This document shows positions 9,818 to 52,828 of a stretch of DNA of 64,000 bases, piece after piece. The DNA is taken from assembly GCF_040957575.1 (NCBI RefSeq), contig NZ_CP162601.1, positions 620,001 to 684,000 of the forward strand, written 5' to 3'. Origin of the DNA: Vibrio sp. HB236076 (GTDB lineage Bacteria; Pseudomonadota; Gammaproteobacteria; Enterobacterales; Vibrionaceae). The position numbers and the translations under genes were made by a program. Within the stretch, counting starts at the first letter, position 1, and every line of letters starts with the position of its first letter. The notes under the pieces are model-generated. The model made no database searches, had not been told where the DNA came from, and worked only from the letters and a program-made list of their open reading frames with translations.

Positions 9818-10666
9818 ATGCAGATTTTTGGTAAATTGCTCGGGGCCTTTTTTGGCTTTTTATTCGGTGGCGTAATCGGTGCGGCATTGGGATGTTTTAT
9901 CGGTCATCAGTTCGACAAAGGCATGAGCCGCAGCGCGGGGTTTAATCCGGGCAGTTTTGCCGGCGGCCCTAATCAGGCAGAGCGACAAAGTGCTTTTTTT
10001 AACGCGGCATTTTCGGTCATGGGGCACGTGGCCAAATCAAAGGGTCAGGTCAAGGCCGAAGAGATCCAATTAGCCAGTGCGATGATGGAGCGCATGAACC
10101 TGCACGGTGAGCAGCGCAGTGCCGCTCAAGCCGCCTTTCGCGCCGGTAAAGAAAGTGATTTCCCGCTCGAAGAGACCTTAGCCAGCGTCAAACAAGCGAC
10201 CAACAGCCGTTATGATTTGTTGCAATTTTTCCTAGAGCTACAAATTTCAGCGGCGTTTGCCGACGGTGATTTACACCCGAGTGAGCGCGACGTGTTGCAA
10301 CGGGTGGCCAAGGGGCTCGGTTTTTCGGCTCGCGATCTCGAGGCGCGTTTGGCCCGTTATATGGCGGCGTTTCGCTTTCAACAGCAGCAGGGCTTTCATC
10401 AGCAAGGGGCGGGCGGTTCTTCTTCGCACGGTTTTGGTCAGCAACCCAACCAAGGACAGCTTGACAGTGCCTATCAAATCTTGGGCGTCAATAAAAGTGA
10501 TGATGATAAAACGATTAAGCGTGCCTATCGCAAATTGATGAACGAACATCACCCAGATAAGCTCATGGCCAAAGGTTTGCCACCAGAGATGATGAATGTG
10601 GCGAAAGAAAAATCGCAAGAGATCCAAAACGCCTACGATATGATCAAAAAACACCGCGCTAGCTAA
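9818..10666 (+). CDS. djlA: Membrane-anchored DnaJ-like co-chaperone DjlA
   Basis: DjlA is an inner-membrane J-domain protein that stimulates DnaK ATPase. The 282-residue chain has the family layout: one Gly-rich transmembrane segment at residues 6-29 (LLGAFFGFLFGGVIGAALG), a TerB-like helical domain at about 55-190, a Gln/Gly/Ser linker, and a C-terminal J domain from about 217 with the HPD triad at 245-247. A ribosome site (GTAGGTAAG) precedes the ATG. The gene is followed by three tandem 18-base units and then by a two-way terminator shared with the DUF547 gene. Confidence 0.95.
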   Translation: MQIFGKLLGAFFGFLFGGVIGAALGCFIGHQFDKGMSRSAGFNPGSFAGGPNQAERQSAFFNAAFSVMGHVAKSKGQVKAEEIQLASAMMERMNLHGEQRSAAQAAFRAGKESDFPLEETLASVKQATNSRYDLLQFFLELQISAAFADGDLHPSERDVLQRVAKGLGFSARDLEARLARYMAAFRFQQQQGFHQQGAGGSSSHGFGQQPNQGQLDSAYQILGVNKSDDDKTIKRAYRKLMNEHHPDKLMAKGLPPEMMNVAKEKSQEIQNAYDMIKKHRAS

Positions 10667-10673
10667 GTGAGCC

Positions 10674-10727
10674 ATGGCAACTAATTGATTTATGGAAACT
10701 AAGTGATCTATGACAACTAAGTACGCC
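10674..10727 (+). repeat. Three imperfect 18-bp tandem units after djlA
   Basis: Three adjacent 18-base units start at 10674, 10692 and 10710, each of the form ATGRMAACTAAKT plus five variable bases. They lie 7 bases past the djlA stop and show no coding sign. Confidence 0.7.
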
Positions 10728-10784
10728 GCGATAAATGAGCACGCCGCGTAACCTCGGCCAGTTTGCCAAGGTGGTCAATAAAAA

Positions 10785-10817
10785 TAAAAAACGCGCCAGA
10801 GTATGGCGCGTTTTTTT
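10785..10817. terminator. Bidirectional terminator, djlA and DUF547 gene
   Basis: A perfect 8-bp stem (ACGCGCCA at 10791-10798 with TGGCGCGT at 10804-10811) is flanked by an A-run on the left and a T-run on the right, so it can stop both convergent genes. Confidence 0.9.
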
Positions 10818-10838
10818 ATTTTCGGGCTGGTGATGCCT

Positions 10839-11654
10839 TTACTGCGCTTTTGGCCATACGTTTAAATCCCAGTCGTAGGCGTCATCCCAGTCGCCATTTT
10901 GCTTGGCGAGCTCGGGGCGTTTTTCACTTAAGTAGCGCTTGACCTGCTCGCGGCCACCCCAGTCTTCTTGATACCAAACGAAAATAGACGAAATCACTTT
11001 TTTGCCCTTTTGTATCGACATGGCTTTTTGACTGGCAACAAATTCGCTTTCTGCCGTCGTTAACCAGGCCTCGGTATTGTCGGCTGTGATGGCGGTGGCA
11101 GAGAGGTTAGGGCAACCGATACTTGCACAATTGACCGCGTAATGGATACGGTAATCTTGCCAAATTGGGCGTAGGATACGGTGTTCAATGTCGTTGAGCG
11201 TCAGAGTTTGGCCCGCCACTTGGGTGATGTCTTGATCCCAAGGGCCAAACGAGAATAGGCCGCCGAGTTTGGTGATCGACTTGAGTGGGTAGTTCTCGAC
11301 AATCAGATTGACGGTTAACGCGTTGTAAAGGTTGACCCAGTAGGCGAATTGCTCGGCGCGGTTTAAATCGCGAGGGTCGAGTGACGTGAGTTGGTTTAGG
11401 TACTGAGTTAAGACGTTTCGGTCTTGACTGCTGATGTCGCCGTAGCGAAAGTAGGTCTGTTCCCCCTCGGTTTTGACGTATTGAGTCAGTATTGCTTGCC
11501 ATTGGCTGTGATCGACTTTTTGCGTTGATTGAGCATTGTGATCAGACCAAAAATCCCAAAGATCAGATTTGGGCGCGGCATAGGCAGAAAGTGGGGTAAG
11601 CAGTAACAAGCAAAGCAGTAATTTGGGGAGTCTCAATAGTGTGGCTAGTCTCAT
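10839..11654 (-). CDS. Secreted DUF547-domain protein
   Basis: A 271-residue protein with a clear signal peptide (hydrophobic LLRLPKLLLCLLLLTPLSAYA, cut about residue 26), so it is periplasmic or exported. The rest matches the DUF547 family: LTSLDPRDLNRAEQFAYWVNLYNALTV in the middle, then GPWDQDITQVAGQTLTLNDIEHRILRP and the Cys-containing HYAVNCASIGCPNLS. The NLYNA and CASIGCP motifs resemble a transglutaminase-like fold, but no activity is established for the family. It is transcribed alone, converging on djlA; a large repeat locus lies upstream. Confidence 0.85.
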   Translation of the reverse strand: MRLATLLRLPKLLLCLLLLTPLSAYAAPKSDLWDFWSDHNAQSTQKVDHSQWQAILTQYVKTEGEQTYFRYGDISSQDRNVLTQYLNQLTSLDPRDLNRAEQFAYWVNLYNALTVNLIVENYPLKSITKLGGLFSFGPWDQDITQVAGQTLTLNDIEHRILRPIWQDYRIHYAVNCASIGCPNLSATAITADNTEAWLTTAESEFVASQKAMSIQKGKKVISSIFVWYQEDWGGREQVKRYLSEKRPELAKQNGDWDDAYDWDLNVWPKAQ

Positions 11655-11730
11655 AGGGGCTATCTCTATTCGGCGATGGTATTTGGGGTTGTCTTGTTAA
11701 AGATATAGAACGGCCGGCGAGGGGTTTTCT

Positions 11731-12052
11731 TTCGCTTGAGACAGGAAAAGATCGCTTCGCTCAAAGAAAAAGTGAAAGACAGTCAATAACAGTGAAACAC
11801 AGTTCGCTGCGCTTGAGACAGGAAACGATCTTAAAACGCAGTGATCTTGCTCCTGTCTTACACTGTGTTCCACTGTCTTATACTGTGTTTGACTGTCTTA
11901 CACTGTGTTCCACTGTCTTATACTGTGTTTGACTGTCTTACACTGTGTCCCACTATCTTTGTCTTTTTCTTGCCACTTGGAGCGAAGCGATCTTGAAACG
12001 CAGTGATCTTGCTTCTGTCTTACACTGTGTTTCACTGTCTTTGACTGTCCCA
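11731..12052. repeat. Dispersed 10-bp-phased ACTGT repeat locus, copy 1
   Basis: The left arm (11771-11810) has inverted units such as agtgaaagac agtcaataac in exact 10-base steps. The right arm (11861-11960) reads ACTGTGTTCC / ACTGTCTTAT / ACTGTGTTTG / ACTGTCTTAC in the same 10-base step; bases 11861-11900 and 11901-11940 are identical. A 92-base block (11961-12052) follows, containing two GATCTTG words and more ACTGT units, and recurs at 19207-19298. A GAGACAGGAAA segment occurs twice (near 11739 and 11815). I see no transposase and no credible coding frame. Confidence 0.9.
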
Positions 12053-12070
12053 TACTCTTCAGTTTTGATA

Positions 12071-12098
12071 AAAAAAGCGCCGCCAAGATTGGCAGCGC
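12071..12098 (-). terminator. Terminator of the leuABCD operon
   Basis: On the - strand GCGCTGCCAA pairs with TTGGCGGCGC (one mismatch) and is followed by six T, 30 bases past the leuD stop. Confidence 0.88.
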
Positions 12099-12128
12099 AT
12101 TGTCGGTCTTTGAACCGTCAAAAGACGA

Positions 12129-12731
12129 TTATTTAAGAAAGCTTGGGATCTTCGCTTCGTATTCGGCAATTTTATCCGCGTGTTGTAGCGTTAAACCGAT
12201 ATTATCGAGACCATTGAGCAAGCAGTGACGACGGAACTCATCGATTTCAAACGAATAAGTCTCCCCATTAGCGCGCACTTCTAATGCTTCGAGGTCGATG
12301 GTGATCTCGGCGCCTTCGTTGTTTTCAACGTAGTCAAATAACGCGTCGACTTCTTGCTCACTCAGGCGGACGGGCACCATTTGGTTGTTGATCGAGTTAC
12401 CGTAGAAAATATCGGCAAAGCTTGGGGCGATCATGGCTTTAATGCCGTAATCCGCTAGGGCCCAAGGCGCGTGCTCACGAGAAGAACCACAGCCAAAGTT
12501 TTCACGGGCTAACAAAATACTCGCGCCCTTGTACTGCGGGAAGTTAAGCACAAACTCGGGATTGGGCTGCTCGCCGGCATCGTCGAGGAAGCGCCAATCG
12601 TGAAAAAGGTGTTTGCCAAAGCCCAAGCGAGAGACTTTCTGCAAGAACTGCTTAGGAATGATCGCATCGGTATCGACGTTAGCGGCGTCAAGAGGCACGA
12701 CCAACCCAGTGTGTTGTTTAAAACCTGTCAT
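12129..12731 (-). CDS. leuD: 3-isopropylmalate dehydratase, small subunit
   Basis: LeuD forms the swivelling small subunit of isopropylmalate isomerase, which with LeuC converts 2-isopropylmalate to 3-isopropylmalate. The 200-residue length is normal. It begins [28 protein letters not shown] and carries the substrate-loop [18 protein letters not shown] at about residues 75-92. It lies 12 bases behind leuC and is the last gene of the leu operon, with a strong terminator directly after it. Identification is secure. Confidence 0.97.
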
Positions 12732-12743
12732 GATATGCTCTCC

Positions 12744-14144
12744 TTAGTCCAACTCTCTGATATCAACAAAACGGCCGGCAATCGCGGCGGCGGCAGCCAT
12801 GGCTGGGCTAACCAAATGGGTACGGCCATCGCGGCCTTGGCGACCTTCAAAGTTGCGGTTTGAAGTCGACGCACAGCGCTCGTGTGGGCCTAGGCGATCA
12901 TTGTTCATCGCTAAGCACATCGAGCAACCTGGCATACGCCACTCAAAACCCGCCTCAATAAAGATTTTGTCTAGGCCTTCGGCTTCGGCTTGCGCTTTGA
13001 CTTGCTCTGAGCCCGGTACGATGATGGCTTCGACGTGGTCGGCCACTTTGCGACCTTGAGCGATAGAAGCGGCGGCGCGCATGTCTTCGATACGTGAGTT
13101 GGTGCAAGAGCCAACAAAGACTTTGTCGACGGTGTAGTCACTTAGGCGTTTACCCGCTTCAAGGCCCATGTATTTTAACGCGCGCTCGGCAGACGATTGC
13201 TGAATTAAGTCAGTCATGTCCTTAGGGTCTGGGATGGTTGCATCCACGGCAATCACCTGACCTGGGTTGGTGCCCCAAGTGACCTGAGGTTTGATTTGGG
13301 TGGCATCGAGAGTCACCACAGCGTCGTATTCAGCATCGTCGTCGCTGCGCAAGCTGGTCCAGTAGTCGACGGCGTCTTGCCAATCTTGTTCACTTGGCGC
13401 AAATTTACGGCCTTTAATGTAGTTAAAGGTGGTCTCATCTGGCGCGATTAAGCCGGCTTTGGCCCCCAATTCAATCGCCATGTTACACACCGTCATACGG
13501 CCTTCCATGGTCAAGTCGCGGATCGCTTGGCCACAGAATTCGACCACGTAACCGGTGCCGCCAGCAGCGGTGGTTTTGCCGATGATCGCCAACACGATGT
13601 CTTTGGCGGTAATCCCCGGTGCGACCTTGCCTTGAACCTCGATCTTCATGGTTTTGGCTTTGGCTTGTTTTAGGGTTTGGGTTGCCAATACGTGCTCAAC
13701 TTCCGACGTACCGATACCAAAGGCCAGCGAGCCAAACGCGCCGTGGGTGGCGGTGTGTGAGTCACCACATACAATGGTCATGCCCGGAAGCGTGATGCCA
13801 AGCTCTGGGCCCATCACGTGGACAATGCCTTGGTATTCGTGGTTGATGTCGTACAAGGTGACCCCAAACTCTTCACAGTTTTTTGATAGGGTTTCCATTT
13901 GGATGCGCGCCATCTCACCAGAAGCGGTAATGTCTTTGGTGGTGGTTGAGACGTTGTGGTCCATGGTGGCAAAGGTTTTGCTCACTTGGCGAACTTTACG
14001 ACCTTTTTCACGCAGACCGTCGAACGCTTGTGGTGAGGTCACTTCGTGTACTAAATGACGATCGATGTACAAAATCGGGGTTTCCCCTGCGGCGGCCACT
14101 GCCACGTGAGCGTCATAAATTTTTTCGTATAATGTTTTGCCCAT
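12744..14144 (-). CDS. leuC: 3-isopropylmalate dehydratase, large subunit
   Basis: LeuC is the [4Fe-4S] catalytic subunit of isopropylmalate isomerase. The 466-residue protein begins [14 protein letters not shown] and has [21 protein letters not shown], a cluster ligand in [16 protein letters not shown] and the paired ligands in [21 protein letters not shown]. Length and motifs match the family. It follows leuB by 64 bases and precedes leuD by 12 bases, so all four leu genes are read together. Confidence 0.97.
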
Positions 14145-14208
14145 TGCTCTTCTCTCCAGTGGGTTTTTATAGGCAGCCCCAAGACTGCCACATTGCTGTC
14201 CGTGTGCC

Positions 14209-15405
<1,197 letters not shown>

Positions 15406-16947
15406 TTATGCGATTTTTTGTTTCTTAATTTGTTCGATTTGGTTGGCGCGATGAATGCTGTTGATCACGTGAAGCAGTGCTTCGCCTGAGGCTTCAACAA
15501 TATCGGTCGACATGCCAGTACCGTGGTATTTACGGCCTTTGTAGTTGGCAATAATATCCGCCTGACCCAAGCCGTCTTCTCCTTCACCTTTGGCGGTGAG
15601 ATCGAATTTGTCCAACACGATATCATAACCGGTGACGCGATAAATACACTGGTAAAGGGCATCGACCGGGCCATTGCCCACCGCCGCTTCACAGCGCTCA
15701 TCGTCACCGCATTGCAATTTGATGCTGGTGGTGGCCATCACGCTGCCTGATTGTACACTTAAATAGTTCAACTTGTAGAAGTCATCTTCTTCGCGCAAGT
15801 TAGAAAAGTACATCAAAGACTCAAGGTCGTAGTCGAATACCTGGCCTTTGCGGTCGGCCAATTTCAAAAAGTTTTCGTACAAGACATCAAGGTTGTACTC
15901 GTCTTGGTTGTAGCCCATGGTATCCATATGGCTTTTCACCGCCGCGCGACCTGAGCGACTGGTTAAGTTCAACGCTTGTTTTTGTAGGCCAATCGACTCT
16001 GGCGTTAGGATTTCGTAGGTGTTTTTGTTTTTCAACATGCCATCTTGGTGAATGCCTGATGAATGGCTAAAGGCATTGGCACCGACGATCGCTTTGTTGC
16101 TTTGGATTGGCATGTTGCAAAGCTGGCTGACCATTTTGCTGGTGCGGGAGATTTCGTTGTGTTTGATGCCAGTGGTGATCCCTAGGTAGTCTTCACGGGT
16201 TTTTAGTGCCATGATCACTTCTTCTAAGGCGGTGTTGCCCGCGCGCTCACCAATGCCGTTAATCGTGCCTTCTACTTGGCGCGCTCCGGCCTGAACCGCG
16301 GAAATCGAGTTGGCAACCGACATGCCCAAGTCGTCGTGGCAGTGCACAGAAATCACCGCTTTGTCGATGTTAGGGACGCGGTTAAACAAGTTAGTGATGA
16401 TGCCGCCAAATTCGCTGGGTACGGTGTAGCCCACGGTGTCGGGAATGTTCACCGTTGTCGCGCCCGCATTGATGGCGGCTTCAACCATGCGGCACAAGTT
16501 GTCGATAGGCGTGCGGCCGGCGTCTTCGCAAGAAAACTCGACATCGTCAGTGTAGCGGCGAGCGTGTTTCACGGCGTGAACGGCCATGTCAACTACGTCG
16601 TCGTAGCTGCGGCGCAACTTGTCTTGAACGTGGATGGTCGAGGTCGAGATAAAGGTGTGAATGCGAAACGCTTCAGCGACTTTAAGCGCTTCTGCGGCGG
16701 CATCAATGTCTTTTTCTACCGCACGTGACAAACCACAAATGCGGCTGTTTTTAATGTGGCGAGCAATGGTTTGCACCGATTCAAAATCGCCTGGCGACGA
16801 CACGGGAAAGCCCGCTTCAATCACATCAACCCCGAGGCGCTCGAGTGCGTAAGCGATTTGCAGTTTTTCTTTTACGGTCAAACTGGCTGACAACGCTTGC
16901 TCGCCATCGCGTAGGGTCGTGTCAAAAATAATCACTTGGTCACTCAT
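15406..16947 (-). CDS. leuA: 2-isopropylmalate synthase
   Basis: LeuA condenses acetyl-CoA with 2-oxoisovalerate, the first committed step to leucine. The 513-residue chain from the ATG at 16947 (AAGGAT upstream) has the DRE-TIM barrel signature TTLRDGEQA, the metal-binding [29 protein letters not shown], and a C-terminal regulatory domain (about residues 390-513) that binds leucine in the family. An earlier in-frame start at 16989 is less likely. It is the first structural gene behind the leucine attenuator. Confidence 0.97.
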
Positions 16948-17013
16948 GTTTGCATCCTTTGTTGTTGGTGAGTCGCTTTCTTCCGGCATTTAAGGTATAA
17001 AATCTTATAGGTA

Positions 17014-17040
17014 TAAAAAAACCCGCATAACGATGCGGGC
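17014..17040 (-). terminator. Leucine attenuator terminator
   Basis: On the - strand CCCGCAT and ATGCGGG pair around a 4-base loop and are followed by seven T, between the leader peptide and leuA. A preceding pairing (TGTGG with CCACA near 17047-17072) could be the competing pause hairpin. Confidence 0.88.
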
Positions 17041-17074
17041 TTTGTAATCTTGTCTGTGGTGTTTCTTCCACAAG

Positions 17075-17134
17075 CTACCCGCGCGATTGATTCACGATGA
17101 GGAGGCTCAGGAGGAGAGAAACGTTAAATGTCAT
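17075..17134 (-). CDS. leuL: leu operon leader peptide
   Basis: A 19-codon frame, MTFNVSLLLSLLIVNQSRG, opens ahead of leuA. It has five Leu codons (CTC CTC CTG, then CTC CTC) in positions 7-12, the hallmark of a leucine attenuation peptide. When charged Leu-tRNA is scarce, a ribosome stalled at these codons would allow an alternative pairing and prevent the terminator at 17014-17040. It begins 38 bases after the candidate -10 element and ends 35 bases before the terminator stem. The assignment rests on sequence and layout and is confident. Confidence 0.9.
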   Translation of the reverse strand: MTFNVSLLLSLLIVNQSRG

Positions 17135-17171
17135 AATGGTATTGTTGACCTTTCCACAAATTGATAACCAA

Positions 17172-17200
17172 TTAGTAACCTACTCATCGCTTGACGTCAA
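17172..17200 (-). promoter_or_regulatory. Candidate promoter of the leu operon
   Basis: On the - strand TTGACG is followed after 17 bases by TACTAA, about 40 bases before the leader peptide ATG. The -10 element is weak. Confidence 0.5.
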
Positions 17201-17436
17201 GTTTTTCTCGCTAAGAGTCGAGATGCGTCACGGCTTTTTTGAGTGGACTTTTTTCAAATAAGACATTAAGTGCTTATTGTCTTCAAAGTTTCATATTTAA
17301 TAACGCTTTGTATTTGTTAGTGAATTTAATATGTACTTGCCGCTGTCATCGAACTTCAAACGATCCGTCACGTACTTGTCACGCAAATTTTTTAATTTTC
17401 TAACGGTACAAAGTGTCATCACAGTAAGGGATAAAT

Positions 17437-17967
17437 ATGCGCACTATCGAGTCTATTGTCCGGTTCGATTTAGCCGTATCTACATTTTGTTTGCAGCATA
17501 AGTTTAATCGCCAAGTGGCGACCATTAGTAAAATGATCTCGCGCAGTGGCGACGGCGATCTGTATTTGCTACTCGGTTTGCTGTGTTGGTGGTTGCATCC
17601 ACAAGTTGGCGGGGTATTTCTCGCTGCCGGGTTGGTGGCGTTTGCCATTGAGTTGCCAATTTATTGGACACTCAAAAATGGTTTTAAACGACGTCGCCCA
17701 AGTGATTTGTGTGACTTGTTGTCGGCATTTATTACCCCTTCTGATCGCTATAGTTTGCCCTCTGGCCACACGGCTGCCGGGTTTGTTATGGCAACGCTCA
17801 TCAGCACCTTCTTCCCTCAATGGGCTTGGCTTGGTTGGTGCTGGGGAACCTTGATTGGCGCTTCACGAATTTTGTTAGGTGTTCACTTTCTAACGGATGT
17901 GGTGATAGGGGCTGGTTTGGGAATTTCCTGTGCTCACCTCGCATTACACATCCTAGGGATTTCTTAA
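17437..17967 (+). CDS. PAP2-family membrane phosphatase
   Basis: A 176-residue integral membrane protein of the type 2 phosphatidic acid phosphatase family, which removes phosphate from lipid pyrophosphates or phospholipids at the membrane surface. All three catalytic motifs are seen: KNGFKRRRP (about 78-86), PSGHT (about 108-112) and SRILLGVHFLTD (about 143-154). Several hydrophobic segments surround them. AAGGGA precedes the ATG. Its stop overlaps the start of the glycosyltransferase gene (TAATG), so the two are co-translated, suggesting a shared role in envelope lipid or glycan metabolism. The exact substrate is unknown. Confidence 0.88.
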   Translation: MRTIESIVRFDLAVSTFCLQHKFNRQVATISKMISRSGDGDLYLLLGLLCWWLHPQVGGVFLAAGLVAFAIELPIYWTLKNGFKRRRPSDLCDLLSAFITPSDRYSLPSGHTAAGFVMATLISTFFPQWAWLGWCWGTLIGASRILLGVHFLTDVVIGAGLGISCAHLALHILGIS

Positions 17968-19010
17968 TGCGTATTCTTTATGGTGTTCAGGGGACGGGCA
18001 ATGGTCATGTGGCCAGAGCACGTGCGATGGCTTCTGCGCTTCAACAGCACGATGTCGAGGTCGATTTTTTATTTTCTGGCCGCAAGCGTGAAAAGTTTTT
18101 TGATATGGCGGTGTTTGGTGACTTTGCGGTGCGCAAAGGGCTGTCATTTGTGACTGACAAAGGTCGAGTCGACTATTTTAAGACCGCGATTAACAACAAC
18201 ATCGCCCGCTTTTGGAATGAAGTGTTGGCGCTTGATTTATCGGGTTATGATTTGGTGATCAACGATTTTGAGCCCGTCACGGCATGGGCGGCCAAACGTC
18301 AAGGCGTACCTTGTATTGGCATCAGTCACCAAAATGCGTTTCGCCATTCGGTGCCACTTAAAGGCGCGAGTTGGTTAGACAAGCAGATGATCGAACACTT
18401 TGCGCCTGCCAATCATCATGTGGCGTTGCATTGGTATCACTTTGATCAGCCCATTTTGCCGCCGATCATTGATATCAAACCGACCGGGGTAAAAAAAGAA
18501 GACTTTATTTTGGTTTACCTTCCTTTTGAGTCTCTGGAGGAAGTGGAATCCTTGCTCTCACGTTTTGGCGAGCAAAAATTTGTGTGTTTCCATCCCGATA
18601 TTCACCAAGTGCACCAAGGCAGCGATATAGAATGGCACCCGCTGAGTACCCGTTTCCACGACTACTTATTGCGTTGTCGCGGCGTGATGGCCAATGGTGG
18701 CTTTGAACTGCCTTCTGAAGCTTTGTCTTTGGGGAAAAAGCTGTTGTTAAAGCCACTGGCTGGTCAGTTTGAGCAGCAAAGTAATGTCGCAACGCTCGAA
18801 ACGCTAGGCCTTGCCAGTGTGATGGAGAGCTTAGATGCGGCGGTGGTGCGCGAGTGGATTGCTTCTGACGATGCGGAGAGTATTCGCTATCCCGATGTTG
18901 CCGCAGCCTTAGCTCGCTGGGTGGTCAGTGGCCAGTGGCATGATCAGCAAAGTTTGCATCGCACCTTGTGGGAGCAAGTGGATTTCCCCGATTACGCGGC
19001 GGCGATGTAA
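17967..19010 (+). CDS. Glycosyltransferase, MJ1255/VC2487 family
   Basis: A 347-residue protein that begins RILYGVQGTGNGHVARARAMA, the Gly-rich N-terminus of the MJ1255/VC2487 family of predicted UDP-sugar glycosyltransferases. The C-terminal half has ANGGFELPSEALSLGKKLLLKPLAGQFEQQ, the nucleotide-sugar binding region of GT-B enzymes. I start at 17967, where the ATG overlaps the PAP2 stop; the frame is open further upstream only as an overlap of PAP2. The same pair precedes leuO in V. cholerae. Acceptor and product are unknown. The repeat locus begins directly after the stop. Confidence 0.85.
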   Translation: MRILYGVQGTGNGHVARARAMASALQQHDVEVDFLFSGRKREKFFDMAVFGDFAVRKGLSFVTDKGRVDYFKTAINNNIARFWNEVLALDLSGYDLVINDFEPVTAWAAKRQGVPCIGISHQNAFRHSVPLKGASWLDKQMIEHFAPANHHVALHWYHFDQPILPPIIDIKPTGVKKEDFILVYLPFESLEEVESLLSRFGEQKFVCFHPDIHQVHQGSDIEWHPLSTRFHDYLLRCRGVMANGGFELPSEALSLGKKLLLKPLAGQFEQQSNVATLETLGLASVMESLDAAVVREWIASDDAESIRYPDVAAALARWVVSGQWHDQQSLHRTLWEQVDFPDYAAAM

Positions 19011-19023
19011 GCACCGTTAGTCG

Positions 19024-19572
19024 AGTGAAACACAGTTAATAACAGTGAAACATAGTCAATAACAGTGAAAGACAGTCAATAACAGTGAAACACAGTTCGC
19101 TGCGCTTGATACAGGGAAAAGATCGCTTCGCTGCAAGATCGTTTCACTGCAAGGACGCTTCGCTAAAGTGGCAAGAAAGGTCAAAACCGAGCTGTTTGGG
19201 TTTTAAGTCTTTTTCTTGCTACTTGGAGCGAAGCGATCTTGAAACGCAGTGATCTTGCTCCTGCTTTTCACTGTGTTTCACTGTCTTTGACTGTCCCACA
19301 CCATTCTTAGGGGTCGGAGCCTCTAACGCATCGCCGTGTTGGTGACTGCGCACTTACCTCGGCTGCCGACCCCGGCCGTCGCGAGCTGTTGACTGTCTTT
19401 CACTGTCTTAAACTGTGTTTGACTGCCTTACACTGTGTCCCACTGTCTTTGTCTTTTCCTTGCTACTTGAAGCGCAGCGATCTTGAAACGCAGTGATCTT
19501 GCTTCTGTCTTACACTGTGTTTCACTGTCTTACACTGTGTTTGACTGTCTTACACTGTGTCCCACTGTCTTT
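19024..19572. repeat. Dispersed 10-bp-phased ACTGT repeat locus, copy 2
   Basis: Between convergent genes lie four 20-base units at 19024-19103 (agtgaaacac agttaataac and variants), then a TTCGCTGCGCTTGA segment, a 92-base block at 19207-19298 with about five differences from 11961-12052, a GC-rich middle (19299-19388), a decamer array at 19391-19450, another copy of the block from 19451 and a final decamer array to about 19570. The array ends 11 bases from the SDR stop. Arms on the two sides are inverted relative to each other, so long hairpins could form. Confidence 0.9.
19310..19373. other. GC-rich inverted repeat inside repeat locus 2
   Basis: GGGGTCGGAGCC (19310-19321) pairs with GGCTGCCGACCCC (19361-19373) with one bulged base, around a 39-base loop. 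There is no T-run. It separates the two repeat blocks and differs in composition from them. Confidence 0.6.
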
Positions 19573-19582
19573 CACTCAGTAA

Positions 19583-20260
19583 TCAGTAACTCGGCATAAT
19601 ATGCACTTCACGAACGTTGGCACGCGGATCCGCTGAAATGGCGTACAGCACGGCATCGGCAATATCTTGGGGCTGCAGTTTATCAAGCTTAGGCTGGTCA
19701 AAAAACGCGGTGTTGACCATGCCCGGAGTGATGGTTGTGCAGCGACCTTGCCATTGCGCCATTTCCAACGCCAAGTTTTGCCCAAAGCCATAAGCAAACC
19801 ATTTTGATGAGCTGTAAATGCTGCCAGCATGGGTATCTCGACCTGCCACAGAGCTGGTGAGAATAAAGTGACCTTGGCTAGCGCGCAAATGAGGCAAGGT
19901 GGTGTGCGCCGTCCAAAGTAGGGCATTGATATTGATATCGATGACTTTTTTCCACTCGTTGGGATCGCCGTTTTCTGTACCGGGTTGACTGATCCCCGTC
20001 CCGGCATTGGCAAACGCCACGTCGAGGCGACCAAAGCGCTCGATAGCAGCCTCAACCACTTGTTGCTGTGCTTGGTAATCGGTCGCATCGGCCGCGATGG
20101 CCAGCGCGTTGTGGTCACCAAATTCGGCAACCAGAGCATCAAGGCGCGCTTGGCGGCGGGCGGTGAGAACCACTTTGTGGCCTGCGTTGACTAAGGTTCG
20201 TGCGGTGGCTTCACCAATACCACTTGATGCGCCAGTAATTAAAATGACTTTTTCACTCAT
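19583..20260 (-). CDS. Short-chain dehydrogenase/reductase (YdfG-like)
   Basis: A 225-residue cytoplasmic oxidoreductase of the classical SDR family. It has the cofactor loop TGASSGIGEATA at residues 9-20, TARRQARLD, which favours NADP by its arginines, the structural AFANAGTG (family NAG), and the catalytic SSVAGRD ... YSSSKW triad residues Ser, Tyr and Lys. Close relatives include YdfG-type 3-hydroxy acid dehydrogenases, but the substrate cannot be read from the sequence. It lies 49 bases behind the DJ-1-type gene, probably in the same transcript, with a good ribosome site (AGAGGA). Confidence 0.85.
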   Translation of the reverse strand: MSEKVILITGASSGIGEATARTLVNAGHKVVLTARRQARLDALVAEFGDHNALAIAADATDYQAQQQVVEAAIERFGRLDVAFANAGTGISQPGTENGDPNEWKKVIDININALLWTAHTTLPHLRASQGHFILTSSVAGRDTHAGSIYSSSKWFAYGFGQNLALEMAQWQGRCTTITPGMVNTAFFDQPKLDKLQPQDIADAVLYAISADPRANVREVHIMPSY

Positions 20261-20309
20261 TGTTCTTGGTCCTCTTTTCGGGAAATTTGGGATTGGGCAG
20301 TGCGTTGAA

Positions 20310-21185
20310 TCACTGCTTGGTTTGCGCGTTGAGCGCCTTGAGCAATTGCTTGGCTAGCTCGTCGTCGGAAAACGGGTTTTGACCGGTGATCAGTTCGCGG
20401 TCAACCACTACATGAGGTTGCCACTTTTCGGCGTAGTCCATGGCACCGCCGGCTTTTTTCATCGCATCGGCTGGGTAATAAGTCAGCGACTTGCCTCCGA
20501 GGGATTGCTCAAACACTTGCTCTTCAGGGGTAGAGAAGATGGTCATTTTATAATCTTGATAAATCCACTGCTTGGCCGCTTGTGACTCGCCATTGACCAT
20601 GGCGGTTAAGTACTCTTGTGGCTGAGCTTGGGCACTGAGTAACGCAATCGGGCCGTGGCAAATGGCCGCCGTGGGTTTCTTCGCTTGGTGGAAATGGCGC
20701 AAGATCTCACCGACTTGTGGGTTGTTGGCCAGGTCGATCAACGGGGCGTGTCCACCGGGAATAAACACCGCTTGGTACGTTTGTAAACCGCCTTGCAGCA
20801 ATTGGTCAAAAGACAGCGGGTCGCGAAGGCCGTCGAGTTGATTGACCACCTTTTCGATGCGCTGCATTTCTTGTTTTGAGCCATCAAAGTACATGGGCAA
20901 TACCGAATTTTGGTCGACGCGTGGCGCGTTGCCTTTTGGCGTCGCGATGACCAATTGGTAACCGGCTTTTAGCAAGGCATCGGCCGGGACGCCAAATTCG
21001 TTGAGGTAATAACCCGTTTGATATTGACTGCCATCGGCTAATGTCATGGCGCTTTCACTTGAAAGCAATACCAACACTTGGCCTTTTTCTGCCGCCATCT
21101 CGGTATTTTCTGAAGCAAAAACACTGGTACTGTGACTGACAAAAAGGGCACTGATCAAAAGAGCGTTTACAGGAAGGCGATGCAT
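20310..21185 (-). CDS. Exported DJ-1/PfpI-family protein
   Basis: A 291-residue protein of the class I glutamine amidotransferase-like DJ-1/PfpI superfamily. It starts with a signal peptide (LPVNALLISALFVSHSTSVFAS), so it should be periplasmic, which is unusual for this mostly cytoplasmic family. The nucleophile elbow is AAICHGPIALL, with the reactive Cys followed by His; GHAPLIDLANNP supplies the family's second motif. The domain layout with TGYYLNEFGVPADALLKAGY resembles Hsp31-like glyoxalase III proteins. It is divergent from a LysR regulator and upstream of the SDR gene; a role in carbonyl stress is inference only. Confidence 0.8.
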   Translation of the reverse strand: MHRLPVNALLISALFVSHSTSVFASENTEMAAEKGQVLVLLSSESAMTLADGSQYQTGYYLNEFGVPADALLKAGYQLVIATPKGNAPRVDQNSVLPMYFDGSKQEMQRIEKVVNQLDGLRDPLSFDQLLQGGLQTYQAVFIPGGHAPLIDLANNPQVGEILRHFHQAKKPTAAICHGPIALLSAQAQPQEYLTAMVNGESQAAKQWIYQDYKMTIFSTPEEQVFEQSLGGKSLTYYPADAMKKAGGAMDYAEKWQPHVVVDRELITGQNPFSDDELAKQLLKALNAQTKQ

Positions 21186-51966: not shown

Positions 51967-52060
51967 TCGCGTTAAAGCCCACCAGTGCGTCGTTTGAGCG
52001 CTGGTGGGCTTATTCGATCACACAGATCACTCGGCCACAGGCATCATTTCACCACAGACA

Positions 52061-52828
52061 TTATTCGACCACGCACATCGGGGTATTGGCAATCGGATCA
52101 CGGTGAATTTGGGCATCGAGATCAAACACGGCTTTGAGCATAGATTGACTTAGGATGGCTTCAGGGCTGCCTTGTGCGCTGATCTGCCCGGCTTTCATCA
52201 CAATCAAATGATCGCAATATCGCGCAGCTTGGTTGATGTCGTGTAAGACAGTGACGATGGTCTTGCCTTGCTCATTGAGTTTGCGCAACAGCTTCATCAA
52301 CTCGACTTGGTGGTTGATGTCCATATAAGTGGTCGGCTCATCGAGCAGTAAATACGGGGTATCTTGAGCGAGTGTCATGGCAAGCCACACCCGCTGGCGT
52401 TGGCCGCCGGAAAGTTCACTGACCAATTGTTCTGCCAACGCATCGACACCAACGGTCTGCATTGCCTCGGCAACGATTTGGTGATCGCGCGGCTTCAGTC
52501 GCCCCCAAAACCCGGTGTGAGGACTGCGTCCGTACGCCACTAGATCTTTAACGATAATGCCTTCTGGGATGGGTTGCGTTTGTGGCAGCAAGGCCAATTG
52601 CGTGGCGAGGTAAGCGGGTGACAGGCCATGCAGGGACTGGTTTTGCCATCGCGCTTCACCCGTTAATGGCGTTAAAATATTGGCCAACGCCTTGAGCAAG
52701 GTCGATTTACCGCATCCGTTTGGGCCAATCAGTGCGATGACTTTGCCGTCGGGGATCTCAATAGTAACGTGTTGGACAATCGCTTTGTCGTGATAACCAA
52801 CACTGAGATTATGGGTGGTGAGTGCCAT
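52061..52828 (-). CDS. Iron-siderophore type ABC transporter ATP-binding protein
   Basis: A 255-residue ABC ATPase of the FecE/FhuC kind. It has Walker A GPNGCGKST, the signature LSGGQRQRVWLAMTLAQ, Walker B YLLLDEPTTYMD and the switch His in VTVLHDINQAARYC. The start is the ATG at 52828; the frame is open 11 codons upstream. No permease or binding protein gene is next to it, so it may serve distant partners, or be a remnant. Energising ferric-siderophore, heme or vitamin B12 uptake is inferred from family likeness only. Confidence 0.85.
   Translation of the reverse strand: MALTTHNLSVGYHDKAIVQHVTIEIPDGKVIALIGPNGCGKSTLLKALANILTPLTGEARWQNQSLHGLSPAYLATQLALLPQTQPIPEGIIVKDLVAYGRSPHTGFWGRLKPRDHQIVAEAMQTVGVDALAEQLVSELSGGQRQRVWLAMTLAQDTPYLLLDEPTTYMDINHQVELMKLLRKLNEQGKTIVTVLHDINQAARYCDHLIVMKAGQISAQGSPEAILSQSMLKAVFDLDAQIHRDPIANTPMCVVE

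Follow-up and report, generated by a model that had tools for sequence, protein, structure and literature searches.

Between leuD and a neighboring DUF547 gene in Vibrio sp. HB236076, the motif ACTGT recurs every 10 bp over about 100 bp, and the question raised by this locus is what kind of element the array belongs to. The window analyzed here is the whole 64,000-bp stretch from positions 620,001 to 684,000 of contig NZ_CP162601.1. A first-pass annotation, made from the letters of this stretch, had described ACTGT units in exact 10-bp register with an inverted array to the left, and both are real: TRF and a pattern search place the cores at 11852-11956 and the inverted array at 11769-11803. 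The gene assignments were also correct, with one neighbor matching DUF547 (PF04784) and the other, leuD, matching Aconitase_C (PF00694) and adjoining the Aconitase-family gene leuC. The pattern ACTGT-N5-ACTGT-N5-ACTGT, with up to 2 mismatches, occurs 34 times in the window compared with 0.10 expected, and none of 100 shuffles reaches 34, which bears out the earlier statement that this is not random low complexity. Across the stretches examined, consecutive same-strand ACTGT cores no more than 60 bp apart are separated by 10 bp in 274 cases, by 11 bp in 6, and by 9 bp in none, with larger steps of 19 bp (25 cases) and 20 bp (18 cases).

The array at leuD is one arm of a larger foldback. At its left end lies a minus-strand remnant of a repeat that we call the B module (GATCGCTTCGCTCAAAG, 11750-11766, read from the letters), and the GTGG foot expected on the right of this remnant is absent; a 19-bp inverted repeat pairs the remnant with 11976-11994 at 95%. 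The left arm (11769-11803, minus strand; pattern search and letters) has three ACAGT cores, the reverse complement of ACTGT, at 10-bp pitch. It is followed by a centre (11804-11851, plus strand) with a degenerate apex/B block, GAAACGATCTTAAAACGCAGTGATCTTGCT, at 11822-11851, inside which lies a 2-mismatch B match (C1:631825-631849, equal to window 11825-11849). The right arm (11852-11956, plus strand; TRF, pattern search, and letters) has 11 units at 10-bp pitch, the first core being CCTGT and the last ACTAT. Beyond it, 22 bp past the last exact core, the foot search places CTTGCCAC (11969-11976, plus strand), which is complementary to a GTGG REP foot, so that by foot search and letters this copy has a right foot and no left one. 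A B module (TTGGAGCGAAGCGATCTTGAAACGCAGTGATCTTG, 11977-12011, plus strand; module search and letters) and, on the leuD side, a second short run of ACTGT decamers (12014-12058, plus strand; TRF, pattern search, and letters) complete the locus. Folding of window 11740-12060 gave z scores of -9.82 as RNA and -7.64 as DNA, and six other copies fold as RNA with z scores of -1.86 to -5.57. Two short tandem repeats elsewhere in the window, at 10663-10722 (18 bp x 3.3) and 52012-52072 (17 bp x 3.6; both TRF), are unrelated to this structure.

The arms grow by tandem duplication. TRF called 11853-11959 with periods of 10, 20, and 40, and the right arm contains an exact 40-bp tandem duplication at 11862-11941 (11862-11901 being identical to 11902-11941); other copies of the element differ from each other by whole units. 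The 10-bp pitch would thus come from duplication of units round a constrained ACTGT core, with the arms lengthening as units are added. Unselected slippage of a short repeat could yield such a duplication as well as the run of near-identical units found at C2:140396-140523, and a single scan of genome contigs of all kinds for five-unit ACTGT arrays returned 81 stretches, of which the 80 that were read are mostly uniform tandem repeats (none of these 80 has a Vibrio title, in a contig set that may omit this genome). Slippage, however, does not account for a unit order common to separate loci, inverted arms, feet, regional clustering, a conserved core amid variable spacers, or the same non-array modules on dispersed copies, and we give it next to no credence.

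The genome consists of two contigs (C1, which holds the window, and C2; 3.88 Mb), and in it the three-unit pattern with at most 1 mismatch has 163 matches compared with 0 for the reversed control. Together with the excess in the window and the clustering of copies, this count rules out chance or low complexity. Arrays were counted in stretches chosen for pattern matches (covering 162 of the 163) and in a 400-kb sample made up of twenty 20-kb stretches elsewhere. The chosen stretches yielded 34 array groups, 25 of them in C1:417-640 kb; the 34 include at least one chance intragenic match (C1:533940). Further copies are at C1:2947-2948 kb and C2:269 kb, and the genome thus has far more than two such loci. 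The stretches examined contain 78 array runs, 46 of them in C1:470-642 kb (172 kb), which also holds 33 B, 43 C, 24 D, and 9 E matches and 30 apex blocks; the rest are at rRNA flanks or elsewhere. The 400-kb sample contained no array of at least 3 units and no B, C, or E module; under the rules used for the cluster, it had one D-like match. Arrays follow six of the eight terminal rRNA flanks (C1 417, 892, 2649, 2907, and 2948 kb; C2 269 kb), a number derived from 12 5S genes and partly from their spacing, and gene conversion may carry the element between these flanks. The two flanks with no array are at C1 27 and 2834 kb, the region near C1:2.84 Mb having been seen in part. Several copies of the palindromic C repeat (e.g., C1:473515-473790) share a 91-aa open frame that is probably incidental.

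Among 227 genomes, the pattern is absent from 225 of the 226 others of the genus; besides this genome, only G136 has matches, namely, three overlapping ones forming one short tandem run. The B module, with 17 matches here, has one weak match among 225 other genomes. In 28 of 29 relatives' loci (the best leuD matches among the 223 other genomes with a match), leuD is followed by DUF547 across a gap of 29 to 208 bp with no array, compared with 474 bp here, and the remaining locus has no DUF547 match. Because the relatives' gap is short and free of arrays, the array at leuD is, judged by this comparison, an insertion into an old junction. The relatives are distant (best leuD DNA match, 79%), and so the boundary of the insertion and any target-site duplication are not definable. 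The suggestion that a lack of conserved spacing in relatives, along with a count of only two loci, would point to a chance local expansion thus gave a divided result, with many loci in the genome but no conservation in relatives. The restriction to this lineage, the absence of arrays from the 400-kb sample, and the insertion at leuD also speak against the nucleoid element that the annotation had proposed. We conclude that this is a lineage-specific element, neither a conserved nucleoid element nor ordinary low complexity. A plasmid or phage origin was considered and rejected, as blastn found no match for window 11740-12060 in databases that may omit records near this genome. No published description of the repeat was recognized in the literature searched, which was largely without subscription papers.

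Ten simple copies align with a shared unit order: ACAGT decamers, a block that reads TTAAGCG(C/A)AGCG on the other strand, a variable centre, and ACTGT decamers, in which the majority spacers are GTTTC, CTTAT, GTTTG, and TTTAC. Units are about 55 bp long without arrays and 110 to 330 bp with them, and the larger islands are mosaics of the decamer element with B, C, D, and E repeats. The complete plan would begin with a B module and a GT[AG]G foot, continue through ACAGT decamers with one such block to the variable centre, and leave it through ACTGT decamers to a C[TC]AC foot and another B module. The motif CTTGC[CT]AC, which is complementary to the GT[AG]G foot found in REP elements, lies within 60 bp outside 19 of the 78 runs, compared with a frequency of 0.0039 in random 60-bp windows; the other 59 runs have no foot in that range. 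A complete two-footed unit of 145 bp is found at C1:2906517-2906661, although its fold as DNA is only moderate (z = -2.15).

The second array island of the window (19022-19578) is one of the mosaics. It opens with a minus-strand left arm of seven units, one core of which is an ACATAG-type variant (19032-19096; TRF, pattern search, and letters), and B-type 16-bp repeats on the same strand (19119-19164; TRF period 16). All that follows is on the plus strand: an array-free, two-footed 55-bp hairpin, GTGGCAAG...CTTGCTAC (19168-19222; foot search), with a DNA fold that is moderate too (z = -2.27); a B module (19223-19258; module search and letters); three units of ACTGT decamers (19270-19294; pattern search and letters); a palindrome, GGGGTCGGAG...CTGCCGACCCC, like the C repeats of other islands (19310-19373; letters); six more units (19392-19446; TRF, pattern search, and letters); a CTTGCTAC foot complement with a B module (19459-19501; foot search and letters); and seven units whose first core is TCTGT (19504-19568; TRF, pattern search, and letters). 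This last run stops 14 bp short of the stop codon of a minus-strand gene at 19583.

These features bring to mind the REP and REPIN families and their RAYT transposases, for which REPtrons, two-footed REPs, REPINs, and use of the lagging strand are treated in the available parts of earlier reports (PMC2817692, PMC3116915, PMC6006769, PMC3733652). As in such systems, the element is a hairpin-capable palindrome or inverted pair (more weakly so in the 145-bp and 55-bp units), and it is multicopy and extragenic, with 39 apex blocks and with 72 of the 78 runs outside called ORFs of at least 150 aa. Inverted hairpin pairs, mosaics, and, at some copies, GT[AG]G and C[TC]AC feet are further likenesses, and the apex TAAGCG(C)AGCG also occurs in enterobacterial REPs, according to the available text of PMC2817692. 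No Rfam family matched window 10000-20500 at the gathering score, and only rRNA, tRNA, and a TPP riboswitch matched in the island-bearing stretches (L031, L042-L046, and L223), which rules out a known Rfam family.

RAYT-type genes are present in the genome and near the repeats. The D repeat could be traced into the relatives G136 and G169, where it adjoins genes of about 343 aa; two of these match REP_Tyr_transpos with E values of 4e-12 and 2e-12, at scores below the curated cut-off, and match Pfam Y1_Tnp with E values of only 0.004 and 0.002. Because even the relatives' genes score so poorly, a whole-genome Pfam search for Y1_Tnp (PF01797) at an E value of 0.001 did not pick up the RAYT-type genes here. 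Scans with these proteins covered about 22% of this genome: tblastn recovered four homologues, all within the main cluster (C1:489-565 kb), and the 400-kb sample had no RAYT homologue. RAYT1 (C1 489446-490465) is preceded by D repeats with a GTAG foot; RAYT2 (C1 514145-515119) is degenerate, being interrupted by in-frame stops, and has a decamer element about 45 bp away; and RAYT3 (C1 554523-555482) and RAYT4 (C1 563817-564779) adjoin GGACAGGC-type repeats. Two of the four match NCBIfam REP_Tyr_transpos with E values of 2e-9 and 7e-10, and a 185-aa piece of a third matches with 1.7e-4, all three at scores below the curated cut-off. In the sequence MSNHYHLVLH, we take HYH to be the HUH motif. 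In G136, several RAYT-type genes (336 to 346 aa) share one 40-kb stretch (C96:40001-80000); they are about 79 to 93% alike in DNA where aligned, and D-type repeats precede some of them.

We therefore favor, with a probability of about 0.62, the reading that the ACTGT arrays form both arms of a dispersed, noncoding foldback repeat of the REP/REPIN type that is copied locally by RAYT. RAYT enzymes would recognize the hairpin in single-stranded DNA and copy it close by. Membership of the decamer element in the REP family is provisional because many copies lack feet and no owner RAYT has been shown: it is found near the degenerate RAYT2, with D repeats at the intact RAYT1 and GGACAGGC at RAYT3 and RAYT4, and there are copies far from RAYT genes at rRNA flanks, on C2, and at C1:1737 kb. 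The lack of an identified owner RAYT sets the decamer element apart from REPIN/RAYT systems, as do a stem built of 10-bp tandem units and the crowding in one region and at rRNA flanks. The first-pass annotation was right in part about the arrays themselves and overlooked this larger structure of foldback, REP-type feet, and RAYT genes in the cluster.

These islands also resemble the Neisseria CGTC/dRS3 mosaics, in which several repeat families are interleaved over large intergenic regions (available part of PMC3733652); the Neisseria mosaics differ, as described, in repeat sequence and in having no decamer arms. The TAACTGA repeats of marine Beggiatoaceae are likewise abundant, intergenic, and direct, with a short conserved core; in contrast to the present element, they are 7-bp units, many of them just upstream of start codons, and the portion of their description available to us gives no two-armed foldback with feet (PMC4679880).

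Within arrays, agreement with the array's own consensus was 0.985 in the core and 0.724 in the spacer, for 50 of 54 TRF arrays (the four dropped had a consensus without ACTGT or ACAGT, so that the core is present by selection). In 21 arm pairs, spacers of the two arms at one locus are no more complementary than those of shuffled arms (0.589 versus 0.610, a value equaled or exceeded in 1745 of 2000 shuffles). Covariation between arms is almost absent: both sides have changed in one pair of 25, and the covariation term is unfavorable; compensatory changes, by contrast, are common in REPINs (available text of PMC3116915). For these reasons, the constraint on the core looks more like sequence recognition than pairing, although invariant cores also pair in every register.

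The gene positions of the copies raise another possibility, namely, that the element acts at the RNA level, a transcript foldback stabilizing or terminating 3' ends and being kept by selection. When we mapped copies against gene ends, as had been proposed, 8 of 43 edges facing gene 3' ends were at -1 to +5 bp from the stop codon and 16 were at -1 to +21 bp; in two further cases the edge overlaps the gene, by 19 and 29 bp, and the chance intragenic match accounts for another. Of 25 edges facing gene starts, to which distances are approximate since genes were called from our own ORF lists (greedy, longest start), four are within 30 bp or overlapping, three of these being overlaps with possibly over-long ORF starts. 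Of the six runs inside called ORFs, one is at a 3' end, and the other five are in minus-strand ORFs, at 5' ends that may have been called too long. The strong RNA foldback and the edges near stop codons fit an RNA-level role, but the spacers and the near absence of covariation count against it and rule out an RNA hairpin kept by covariation, and the copy in the window lies beyond a putative terminator-like hairpin of leuD, seen in the letters. Such a role is very improbable. In islands at C1:510-577 kb, right arms end 1 to 4 bp from the stops of several minus-strand genes (538783, 544627, 546362, 571749, and 577239), for which a preference in insertion or extension of the array as far as the gene might account. 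Genes beside islands encode ribosomal protein L9, alginate lyase, RmlD, an O-antigen ligase-type protein, glycosyltransferases, and LeuCD. The longest array seen, C2:140297-140706, has 14 windows of near-identical GTTTG units; the run next to it overlaps a called ORF of 292 aa at the 3' end of that ORF.

The higher conservation of the core than of the spacer is compatible with protein binding along the arms, so that this part of the earlier proposal of a protein-binding or bending array may hold. On this view, one may picture a host protein-binding array in which ACTGT is a half-site bound head to tail every 10 bp by an OmpR/PhoB-type or other cooperative binder, as a titration or architectural platform. 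The core conservation and the arms that do not covary would suit this picture, and there are precedents for tandem sites at about one helical turn in the tandem 10-bp half-sites of Escherichia coli OmpR (PMC7380067) and the decamer tor boxes (CTGTTCATAT), which have CTGT in common with the array core (PMC9239176), both as given in the available parts of the sources. Those sites, however, are few and at promoters, whereas here the arrays are long, two-armed, and mostly off promoters, with edges more often at gene 3' ends than at starts, and the element is lineage specific and regionally clustered. The same-face arrangement claimed for the cores fails in long arrays because a 10.0-bp pitch at 10.5 bp per turn drifts by about 17 degrees per unit, or about 154 degrees over 10 units. 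A search of 14,365 bp of array loci found no CTGT-N8-ACAG, which we take to be the LexA (SOS) box motif, and LexA boxes are thereby ruled out. We regard a host-binding array as an unlikely explanation.

Bending was also proposed in the first-pass annotation. In six arrays tested, AA/TT phasing at 10 bp is high, and AAA/TTT tracts range from the 45th to the 99.9th percentile; with values so scattered, consistent A-tract bending is ruled out.

Within the REP-type reading, the ACTGT core would most likely be a contact site of the mobilizing protein or of another protein. A more specific version, which we offer only tentatively and with clear doubt, is a REP-type mobile hairpin whose stem has turned into a multisite protein-binding array, with ACTGT contacts every 10 bp on both arms that may be read by the mobilizing RAYT or a host protein, and which may have spread largely near RAYT genes by local, strand-biased copying. 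The polarity of the copies is suggestive of such a bias: the 39 apex blocks are all on the minus strand at C1 below 894 kb and all on the plus strand at C1 above 2.6 Mb and on C2, following the sign of local GC skew where measured. Counter to skew, 8 of 9 runs at C2:800-835 kb point the opposite way, and a different cause may underlie the common polarity of the rRNA copies. REPs in the available parts of the cited papers have short, simple stems, whereas here the stem consists of tandemly arrayed units whose core is constrained. The element thus makes the relation between stem unit number and mobility a testable question, the crowding of copies in one 170-kb region with four RAYT genes does the same for local, strand-biased RAYT copying, and the unequal conservation of core and spacer provides a concrete binding hypothesis.

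Lastly, the arms may be repeated enzyme sites of a miniature element mobilized by some other transposase or recombinase family, with the RAYT genes being mere neighbors. The Foldback (FB) elements of Drosophila have arms that hold 10-bp units, and the arms seen here, which are inverted, repetitive within, and variable in their number of units, are reminiscent of such elements. In Foldback and Galileo, internal tandem repeats expand and contract and have been proposed as secondary transposase binding sites (available part of PMC3573991), but those elements are eukaryotic, have kilobase arms, and carry, or carried in the past, a transposase gene of their own. Looking at the neighbors of the islands examined, we saw no autonomous partner bearing such ends, and the GT[AG]G-type feet and RAYT clustering are better explained by the REP type, which leaves another enzyme family a quite improbable source. 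Some encouragement for it comes from viral contigs, 23 stretches of which contain ACTGT triplets at 10-bp pitch (13 of these stretches were examined); Pfam searches of seven ORFs beside such triplets identified one integrase, four wall-lysis proteins, one peptidase-type protein, and one thymidylate synthase. The viral triplets might possibly be arm-type sites of an integrase, a weak suggestion. They are found repeatedly, and with similar flanks, close to prophage-like contig ends (L179, L182, L187, L189, L195, L196, and L197), with an integrase gene as neighbor in L182 and cell wall lysis genes in L179, L187, L195, and L196.
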